Shown in pieces: positions 22,533-27,271 of a stretch of 48,977 nucleotides of DNA. The notes beneath the pieces were generated by a model. That model saw only the letters and a list, made by a program, of their open reading frames with translations. It ran no database searches and had not been told where the DNA came from. A program made the translations under genes and the position numbers. Origin of the DNA: an uncultured Ignavibacteria bacterium (GTDB lineage Bacteria; Bacteroidota; Ignavibacteria; Kapaibacteriales; Kapaibacteriaceae); NCBI GenBank assembly GCA_903939735.1, contig CAJAIA010000028.1, positions 1 to 48,977 on the forward strand. The letters are read 5' to 3'. The stretch's first letter is position 1. The number at the start of each line of letters is the position of its first letter.

Positions 22533-22935
22533 CACTTGGGGACTCCGGGTGATCGCCGCGTCGCTTGCGACGGGGAGGAAAGTCCGAACTCCATAGAACA
22601 GCACGCTTCTTAACGAGAAGGTGTCGCAAGGCAACGGAAAGTGCAACAGAAAGATACCGCCGATGGCCTCGCAAGAGGATCAGGTAAGGGTGAAATGGTG
22701 GGGTAAGAGCCTACCAGCAGCCGGGCGACCGGCTGGCTCGGCAAACCCCGTGCGGAGCAAGATCAAGCAGATGCAGGGACACTTCGGTGTTCAGAGGTTG
22801 TTCGCCTTGTCTACGTTGTAGACTGCATCGGGTAGATCGCTGGAGGTTAGTGGCAACGCTAATCCTAGAGAAATGATCACCTCCTTCAGCTTCGGCTGGA
22901 GAAGACAGAATTCGGCTTACAGGAGTCTCCTAGTG
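22533..22935 (+). ncRNA. rnpB: RNase P RNA, bacterial type A
   Basis: This is the catalytic RNA that trims the 5' ends of tRNA precursors. The conserved core is visible: GAGGAAAGTCCGAACTCC (about 22574-22591) forms one side of P4 and its neighbourhood. It is followed by ACAGAAAGATACCGCC, a GGTAAGGGTGAAA segment, GTAAGAGCCTACCAGC, AACCCC, AGATCGCTGGAGG and the 3' ACAGAATTCGGCTTAC that completes P4. The ends were set by the P1 helix: CACTTGGGGACTCC at 22533-22546 pairs with GGAGTCTCCTAGTG at 22922-22935, with one G-U pair and one mismatch. Length of about 403 nt is normal. The 3' end adjoins, and may overlap, the HPt gene region. No clear intrinsic terminator follows. Confidence 0.96.
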
Positions 22936-25465: not shown

Positions 25466-26041
25466 TCATCGCGATGTCACTGCGCGGAACGTAAGGTTGA
25501 TACGAGGCGATTTGCAGCGTGCAGTCTTTGGCAGCGCATGCTTCCATAGTTGTTGCGTCGTGCCACGCATGATCAAGAGACTCATCGATGGAAGCACAAT
25601 CTTTACCGTCGGAATATCAGGATCTACTCGCGAACGAAAGTGCAACGCTCGTTCGGCACCAATGCTCAAGGATGCAATCACCGGATCGCGACCAAGTTCT
25701 GGCTCGTCATCACTGTGGTACCCCATTGAGTCACGACCATCACGATACAGGTTGCAGAGTACGCTGTTAAACACAGCTCCTGCTCGATCCTCAACGACGT
25801 GCCGTAGATACTGTAATGTTGGTGTCCACGGTAGCGGACGGTGCTCGATGCCAGAGTAGGTATAGCACGCGTCTTCATCTCCATACCATGCAACGCGGCG
25901 AGGCTGGAGCATGGTCTTCCCAAACATCGTAATTGGCTCGTCTCGCCAGACAAGACCTTCAAAGAGTGTTACAAACAACGATGACTCGTCGATGTCCAGC
26001 TCCAGTCGATCAATGAGTTCAATGTTGGGGTAGTTGCTCAT
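25466..26041 (-). CDS. alkB: AlkB-like 2-oxoglutarate/Fe(II) dioxygenase (alkylated-base repair)
   Basis: AlkB enzymes oxidatively remove methyl groups from 1-methyladenine and 3-methylcytosine in nucleic acid. The 191-residue product has the complete iron site: His109 and Asp111 in MGYHSDDEPE and His168 in QLWKHALPK. The 2-oxoglutarate-binding RINLTFR lies at 180-186. Overall it resembles the shorter ALKBH2/3-like bacterial group (RRVAWYGD, LPWTP, NLYRDGRDSMGYHSD). The ATG at 26041 gives the best N-terminus. Codons further upstream run into the U-tract of the minus-strand terminator 12 bases away, so the gene's own promoter is unclear. No ada or other repair gene adjoins. Confidence 0.93.
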   Translation of the reverse strand: MSNYPNIELIDRLELDIDESSLFVTLFEGLVWRDEPITMFGKTMLQPRRVAWYGDEDACYTYSGIEHRPLPWTPTLQYLRHVVEDRAGAVFNSVLCNLYRDGRDSMGYHSDDEPELGRDPVIASLSIGAERALHFRSRVDPDIPTVKIVLPSMSLLIMRGTTQQLWKHALPKTARCKSPRINLTFRAVTSR

Positions 26042-26051
26042 GATGCAAGAA

Positions 26052-26182
26052 ACAAAAAACCCCACCAAGATTGGTGGGGCTCGTATCCATGCCGAGGAGG
26101 GGTTTTACGGCATGGAACATTTGCTGTGGCCTTTAACGCGATGCCCCTCTCTGGGTTGAGGGACGGTGCATGACTACCGAGC
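26052..26182 (-). ncRNA. Candidate structured small RNA, or structured 3' end of the scpB transcript
   Basis: The 255 bases between scpB and alkB contain no gene I can support, but on the minus strand they fold strikingly. A short closing stem (CTCG-TA, 26175-26181, with TACGAG, 26080-26085) would enclose two hairpins: 26142-26170 (TCCCTC/GAGGGG, loop AACCCAGA) and 26087-26115 (8-bp CCATGCCG/CGGCATGG, loop TAAAACCCCTCCT). A classical intrinsic terminator follows. The second loop holds CCCCTCCT, complementary to Shine-Dalgarno sequences, as in C-rich-loop regulatory RNAs. I found no matching -7 box, so it could be a processed 3' untranslated region. It lacks the signatures of SRP RNA, tmRNA and RNase P RNA. 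The stretch 26183-26296 shows nothing further. Confidence 0.4.
26053..26079 (-). terminator. Intrinsic terminator downstream of scpB / candidate small RNA
   Basis: On the minus strand CCCCACCAA pairs perfectly with TTGGTGGGG (26060-26068 with 26071-26079), followed immediately by six T residues. This textbook terminator lies 12 bases before the alkB ATG and about 215 bases after the scpB stop. Confidence 0.88.
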
Positions 26183-26296
26183 TGCATCACAGGTATCACA
26201 ACACCATGATCAACAGAGAACGCAGGAAACCGTTACAGTGTTTCTGGTTTCCCGTCGATCCGCGGCGATGCGTAAACAAGAGTAAGCTGTTGATTT

Positions 26297-27271
26297 TTAT
26301 TGTGTTGGCTCGTTATCCACAGCGCCTGCACCATCATCGTCACGCGTCGATTCGTCGTCCCAGGTGCCCGGTTCTGGGTCTTCTACGAGTCCGTGCTCTG
26401 CCTCATTCTCCATCGAGTGATGCCAGTATGCACCCGAGGTTGCCTCTGTTGTATCCGATGTTGACGCGTCGTCGATCGGCGCATCACCGTCGAGCAGCAA
26501 GGCAAGTTGCTTTCGTAGGGTACGGTGATCTGTCTTGATCGATATCGAGTCGTCAAGATCTATCATCGTTGTTGTCGTCTTAATGAGGTCGTCAATCTCT
26601 CGCAGCTTCGGCAAATCGGAGATATCGTTCAGACCAAAGACGCGGAGGAATTCCTCGGTCGTTCCATAGAGCAATGGCTTTCCGAGCGTTTCTGCGCGAC
26701 CAATCATCGCAACGAGTTGCTTCTCGACAAGTGAGTTCACAACCTCGCCGCTATTGACTCCACGAATCGCATCAATTTCTGCCTTCGTGATAGGCTGACG
26801 GTACGCAATGATTGCAACCGTTTCAAGAGCTGCTTGCGTTAGGCGGCGGCGATTCTTCGCCTTAAGCAACCGCTGCACCAACTGTCCATGCGCCGGAGTC
26901 GTTGCGAACTGGAATCCACCTGCGATCTTAACAATGCGATACGGACGCTCCACCCGCTCGAGCTCATCATTGATTTCTTCAACGAGCTCGTCAAAGAACT
27001 CCTTCGGTACATCGAATGTTGGAACAACCGTCTCCGGCGCGGGCTGTGGCTGCTCGCCTTCAAGCGGCAATTGCTGCTGCCCGGGAGCCTGTTGTGAGGG
27101 ATCCTCAAGCACCAACAACCGATGAAGCATGCGATTCGTCAGCGGCTCTTCGCTTGCGAAAATCAGCGCCTCAAGTGCATGGAGTTGCTCGCCACGATCG
27201 AGCGTAAAAAAGTACGGCAGCTCTCGCTGTTCGACTGCACGTTCGAGCTGTTCGTGTTCAAGTTCTGTCAT
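26297..27271 (-). CDS. scpB: Segregation and condensation protein B
   Basis: ScpB is the winged-helix partner of ScpA in the SMC condensin complex that compacts and segregates chromosomes. The 324-residue product has an N-terminal winged-helix domain (LHALEALIFASEEPLTNRML, residues ~30-50), interrupted by an extra Pro/Gln-rich insertion at ~57-85, and continues with YRIVKIAGGFQFATT. The second winged helix contains the family signature LTQAALETVAIIAYRQPITKAEIDAIRGV (~143-172) and LLYGTTEEFLRVFGL. The last ~65 residues are acidic and low-complexity, a common variable tail. Its ATG overlaps the scpA TGA by four bases. It is the last gene of the asparaginase-alr-scpA-scpB run, with the terminator far downstream. 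Confidence 0.95.
   Translation of the reverse strand: MTELEHEQLERAVEQRELPYFFTLDRGEQLHALEALIFASEEPLTNRMLHRLLVLEDPSQQAPGQQQLPLEGEQPQPAPETVVPTFDVPKEFFDELVEEINDELERVERPYRIVKIAGGFQFATTPAHGQLVQRLLKAKNRRRLTQAALETVAIIAYRQPITKAEIDAIRGVNSGEVVNSLVEKQLVAMIGRAETLGKPLLYGTTEEFLRVFGLNDISDLPKLREIDDLIKTTTTMIDLDDSISIKTDHRTLRKQLALLLDGDAPIDDASTSDTTEATSGAYWHHSMENEAEHGLVEDPEPGTWDDESTRDDDGAGAVDNEPTQ

Follow-up and report, generated by a model that had tools for sequence, protein, structure and literature searches.

A structured element on the minus strand of the analysed window (the whole stretch of 48,977 nucleotides of contig CAJAIA010000028.1) is conserved at one locus, directly 3' of scpB, in nine of the 21 Kapaibacteriaceae genomes in which this flank can be read. 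It possesses a stem whose two arms co-vary, unpaired bases that are rich in C and poor in G, and a unique block of conserved sequence immediately upstream. We suggest that it most likely represents a small RNA of the anti-Shine-Dalgarno kind, a functional assignment that is a prediction by analogy. The fuller proposal, to which we give an even chance, is an independently transcribed, trans-acting RNA of about 155-185 nt whose C-rich loops block the initiation of translation; its transcription, its regulator, its pairing with mRNAs and its targets are parts of this proposal that we infer.

Locus and Fold of the Element

The element sits between scpB (26297-27271; SMC_ScpB family) and alkB (ATG at 26041; 2OG-Fe(II) oxygenase superfamily), the placement given in an earlier sequence-only reading of this DNA. 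The predicted RNA covers about 157 nt (26052-26208, minus strand); its putative 5' end is set by a GTT motif lying a few bases upstream, and its putative 3' end by the T run of the terminator. When 171 nt of the minus strand are folded, a free energy of -65.9 kcal/mol is obtained (z -4.93), and none of 200 shuffled sequences is equally stable. Without the terminator, the element reaches a z-score of -3.36 (one of 200 shuffles equally stable); the first 89 nt by themselves attain only -2.02 (nine of 200).

The two hairpins and the terminator described in the sequence-only reading were all recovered in the fold, with 7, 9 and 11 pairs, respectively. The first hairpin exposes the loop AACCCAGA on a stem of 7 bp that includes one U-G pair (26164-26158/26149-26143); the second carries the loop UAAAACCCCUCCU on a perfect stem (26116-26108/26094-26086) that is 9 bp long and not 8 bp as had been stated. 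The sequence of this second hairpin (26086-26116) is almost unchanged in G003 and G005. The intrinsic terminator (26054-26082) consists of 11 pairs (26082-26057) followed by the T run.

The closing stem envisioned earlier did not hold. Judging from its start at 26182, we take it to have been GCUCG (26182-26178) paired with CGAGC (26083-26079); this pairing is missing from the minimum-energy fold, borrows bases from the terminator, and is disrupted in the two nearest relatives when these are inspected by eye. The conserved closing stem lies further out (26203-26122) and is composed of two tiers, P0 and P1. P0 is formed by the arms 26197-26203 and 26122-26128, with pair probabilities of 0.86-0.98 in the window. 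The arms of P1, in the register found across the family, are located at 26184-26191 and 26137-26144; in the window this register faces competition from the AACCCAGA hairpin and from a P1 in shifted register, and its pair probability is therefore about 0.21.

The evidence for P1 comes from comparison among genomes. In an alignment fitted to the structure and comprising seven of the nine members (G012 and G015 were left out), 94.6% of the P1 cells are paired and both sides have changed in five of the eight pairs; the score of this fitted alignment was matched by one of 500 shuffles. With arms picked by eye, the 5' and 3' arms from the same genome pair with an average of -13.4 kcal/mol, compared with -4.2 kcal/mol for arms combined across lineages, and none of the 66 cross-lineage combinations of these arms is as strong as the weakest own pair. 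A duplex test on all nine genomes without prior selection of the arms served as a control for this choice: G002, G004, G012, G013 and G017 surpass their shuffled counterparts (at most 6 of 300 as good), and G000, G003, G005 and G015 fail to do so (84-144 of 300). Co-variation among relatives, which had been named as a check on the element, is found in the P1 arms, and in five of nine genomes the pairing stands out even when the arms are not chosen beforehand.

Distribution within the Kapaibacteriaceae

Twenty-three genomes of the family were surveyed; one (G022) has no scpB match and in another (G016) the contig ends 22 bases past scpB, leaving 21 with a readable flank. The carriers are G000, G002, G003, G004, G005, G012, G013, G015 and G017; eight of these assignments are firm, and that of G015 is weak. 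In the remaining 12 genomes, the element was not seen 3' of scpB. A ScpB tree, which represents a single gene and was read by eye, places carriers on early as well as late branches, a pattern that fits an ancestral element that may have been lost several times.

Whole-genome searches with a model built from five genomes (R1) returned G013 (E-value 4.5e-6), G012 (0.049) and G017 (0.066), in each case at the scpB locus; a further R1 match in G016 (0.135) was judged by eye to be coding sequence and hence false. The seven-genome model R2, run with stricter search filters than R1, detected the element in G012 (1.4e-5) and G015 (0.258). The order was also searched beyond the family, in 100 further genomes, and 12 of these contain an R2 match at E-values of up to 0.3; these are weak and partial, extending over 36-119 bases of a model with 134 positions, and the one that was inspected (L189) was dismissed by eye as AT-rich noise. 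In L068, a relative without the element, imperfect short direct repeats of the GCTGACCTACCGTC type occur right after scpB.

The Upstream Block and the Question of an Independent Transcript

About 42 bases directly 5' of the predicted RNA form a conserved, promoter- or operator-like block (26212-26253, minus strand) with the pattern GGGAAACC...GTAAC-N17-GTT (GTAAC at 26236-26232, GTT at 26214-26212). The latter motif is present in G000, G003 and G005, and G012 and G013 have GAAAC-N17-GTC at this place; neither version is found in the blocks of G002, G004, G015 and G017. A second pattern, GAAAC-N16-GTTTYC, is contained in the block of six of the nine members, and the fuller pattern GAAACN6AACN7GTTTYC is matched exactly four times in the 23 genomes, every time at the element. 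Searches for a wider regulon with relaxed patterns were unproductive: AAAACTGAAACAGTTT, with up to two mismatches, gave seven sites in nine genomes against eight for a reversed-pattern control, and GAAACN6AACN7GTTTYC, with up to one mismatch, gave 54 sites in 23 genomes (seven of them the RNA itself) against 51. In G002, G004 and G013, the sequence TAGGTTTG at the aligned place of the block resembles TAnnTTTG, the -7 element of Bacteroidota promoters. The sequence-only reading had noted that no good promoter box is visible, and a simple sigma-70 scan yielded none in the block; the doubt raised there is weakened by the conserved promoter-like block itself.

Several gene starts elsewhere in the window are preceded by TAnTTTTG-like boxes, which we take to be of the Bacteroidota -7 type, at distances of up to about 20 bases from the ATG, as if the leaders of these genes were very short or absent. 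The GTAAC-type motif also recurs around the starts of genes for extracytoplasmic function (ECF) sigma factors. With a pattern (GTAAC-N16-18-GTY) that was chosen only after an earlier result had been seen, 15 matches were found in the start regions of 38 ECF genes from four genomes (the genes covered being the listed 6 of 11 in G000, 12 of 28 in G013, 13 of 24 in G012 and 7 of 24 in G002), each region extending from upstream of the frame into the first codons. Shuffling yielded a mean of 1.1 matches (largest of 200: 5), and the opposite strand yielded 2. Such a recurrence would fit an autoregulatory ECF promoter that is shared within the Kapaibacteriaceae.

We consider it likely that this is not just the tail of the scp message but an independently transcribed element, because scpB of G012 has a terminator of its own (10 pairs and a T run) between the gene and the conserved block; in G013, the terminator scan found only that of the RNA itself. 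Were the element only the terminator and 3' untranslated region of the scpA-scpB mRNA, from which an RNA might be processed, this would be in keeping with its position directly 3' of scpB on the same strand and with the negative sigma-70 scan, and this was also the doubt voiced in the sequence-only reading. The doubt is weakened by both the conserved block and the scpB-specific terminator of G012. Moreover, scpB does not need the element, since in nine of the 12 non-carriers the next frame begins no more than 6 bases from the stop codon of scpB (69, 123 and 271 bases in the other three); taken together, we regard this explanation as improbable. Still less probable, in our view, is a leader or attenuator of alkB. 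The alkB frame starts 12 bases past the T run in the window, which leaves no room for a promoter or leader of its own, and the same arrangement is observed in G003 and G005; however, alkB occupies the element locus only in these two genomes and G000, and six other carriers lack it there, which argues against a general role of this kind.

The C-Rich Loops and Their Possible Targets

P1 encloses a loop region of 39 nt in the window (26145-26183), with GUCAUGCACC at 26174-26165; in the window lineage this region closes in part into the 7-bp hairpin with the loop AACCCAGA (26164-26143). Among the members, the large loop measures 32-43 nt and contains C-rich runs and the motif UCRUGC, which is found in all nine when the delimiting arms are picked by eye. 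In eight members this motif is open, with an unpaired probability of 0.70-0.97; G015 is the exception, most of the motif being paired there (0.17). Overall, 27-45% of the unpaired bases are C and 5-14% are G, and in an anti-Shine-Dalgarno test all nine members displayed C-rich runs with an unpaired probability above 0.5; the long unpaired run of G000, G003 and G005 is CCCCTCCTC. A second C-rich loop follows in six members (G000, G002, G003, G004, G005 and G012).

The notion of a regulatory RNA with C-rich loops, advanced in the sequence-only reading, has hence gained support from the conservation at one locus, the co-variation of P1, the excess of C over G in unpaired positions, and the upstream block. 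Its second part, pairing with ribosome sites, stays conjectural, as no target emerged from the checks made on the large loop, the second loop and rpsU. The complement of the large loop, with up to three mismatches, occurs at 74 sites in the nine genomes (three being the RNA itself) against 44 for a reversed-pattern control, a moderate excess that could not be tied to gene starts. Thirty of the 74 sites could be placed, and beyond the three in the RNA itself, four of 27 passed a loose test for a start, none of them convincingly; neither did a convincing start recur between genomes among the placed sites. One candidate in G015 is perhaps the start of a secreted alpha-amylase gene, but the loop of G015 itself does not contain the matching CCTCAACCC, and the protein at a site in G017 has no Pfam match. 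The gene rpsU was likewise rejected as a target, because the AGG-type site before its assumed start is present in all eight carriers compared (G012 left out) and also in 10 of 13 genomes where the element was not seen (G016 included). For the second loop, complements with up to one mismatch are found at 11 sites in the window against 18.3 expected, and the sole exact one is the RNA itself.

Shine-Dalgarno motifs are sparse in this DNA. Of the 21 well-bounded gene starts that the window offers, five have such a motif at positions -18 to -4 (0 and 3 of 21 in two control segments), and in a cruder test the count did not exceed expectation (14 of 36, with 13.4 expected). The pattern for the 3' end of 16S rRNA was present in two of 11 genomes and not found in G000. 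Hfq (PF17209) was not found in the 23 family genomes by a search that, as a control, matched five of 14 known genomes. Bacteroidia rarely use Shine-Dalgarno pairing, according to excerpts of PMC8710568.

Proposed Mode of Action

In the mechanism that we envision, transcription would begin just 5' of P0 from a promoter of the element's own, which an ECF sigma factor may recognize; P0 and P1 would form a stalk that presents the large C-rich loop, a second hairpin would present a further one in six members, and the terminator would end the transcript. In sequence, the loops form the complement of G-rich ribosome sites, with CAU facing AUG, and the RNA would most likely block the translation initiation of a few mRNAs equipped with strong Shine-Dalgarno sites. 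The weak use of Shine-Dalgarno sites and the lack of a convincing target among the sites placed count against ready acceptance of this mechanism; should it be real, it would reach few messages. More tentatively, and with clear doubts on our side, the element may found a new RNA family, in which an anti-Shine-Dalgarno RNA directed at few strong-site mRNAs is produced from its own signal-dependent promoter and places UCAUGC across the start codon, all this in a lineage where Shine-Dalgarno use is weak and Hfq was not detected. If real, the element would offer a tangible case, complete with promoter, stalk and loop, for studying how trans-acting RNAs operate near the Bacteroidota, where Bacteroidia rarely rely on Shine-Dalgarno pairing (PMC8710568) and where this family yielded no Hfq.

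The main rival to a trans-acting RNA directed at mRNAs is a sponge whose C-rich loops and UCAUGC motif titrate an RNA-binding protein. A conserved unpaired motif next to C-rich runs is what such a sponge might display, and the lack of a conserved mRNA target fits as well; yet Hfq, the one binding protein sought, was not found, and we judge a sponge to be unlikely, if well ahead of the following two ideas. The element might also be a divergent form of a housekeeping RNA, for example 6S (RF00013). A search of the 23 genomes at an E-value of 0.1 gave no 6S match, so that one could be hidden in them, and the element has a long stalk; but neither the window nor the relatives' loci match 6S in Rfam, and 12 of 21 genomes lack the element at the locus, with R1 and R2 not finding it elsewhere in them; the chances of this explanation are very slim. 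We give even less credence to a short coding sequence starting from the AUG of GUCAUGC: the codon is AUG in eight of nine members and GUG in G004, but even for the pair G000 and G003 the frames, compared by eye, disagree in both their length and their register, and the AUG has no Shine-Dalgarno site before it.

Comparison with Known RNA Families

An Rfam search, proposed in the sequence-only reading, was carried out, and no family reached its gathering threshold at the element or at the relatives' loci. The best match below threshold was to RF02278, a toxic small RNA of Betaproteobacteria, which scored 30.8 bits (gathering threshold 50 bits; span 26119-26051); G005 reached 29.6 bits, and no other relative's locus matched at an E-value of 0.1. 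RF02278 resembles the element in having a C-rich hairpin followed by a terminator, but the match omits P0, P1 and the large loop and is confined to two of nine members, and with these scores we reject membership. For RNAs of this type, passages of PMC7011215 suggest pairing with ribosome sites, and passages of PMC4603805 describe their function in Burkholderia cenocepacia as unknown. The anti-hemB RNA (RF02837) shares two hairpins and a terminator with the element, which nevertheless scores only 19.7 bits (gathering threshold 49.5 bits).

The closest parallel in mode of action may be the alpha-r14 or cuckoo RNAs of the Alphaproteobacteria (NfeR1, SmelA075, SmelA099), although the element is not one of them. 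According to excerpts of PMC10746234 and PMC3927594, these RNAs expose C-rich loops at the end of stems whose sequence is free, and NfeR1 silences ntrB at its initiation region through its C-rich motifs, independently of Hfq (PMC10746234). Unpaired C-rich anti-Shine-Dalgarno motifs, stems of free sequence and a terminator are common to both. Unlike the three or four hairpins of these RNAs from another phylum, which, as far as the excerpts go, each display the identical loop CCUCCUCCC, the element has one large loop with UCRUGC on a two-tier stalk; the exact CCUCCUCCC is found in one of nine members (G017), and there only once, and with this difference in layout, membership was rejected.

A search of an open-access collection retrieved no paper that pairs Kapabacteria with small or non-coding RNAs; with the spelling Kapaibacter, the results were too unspecific for a conclusion. 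The searches made thus point to a conserved RNA that they did not show to have been described. The one family that attained its threshold in the window was the bacterial RNase P class A RNA, located at 22537-22935 on the plus strand with 278.6 bits.
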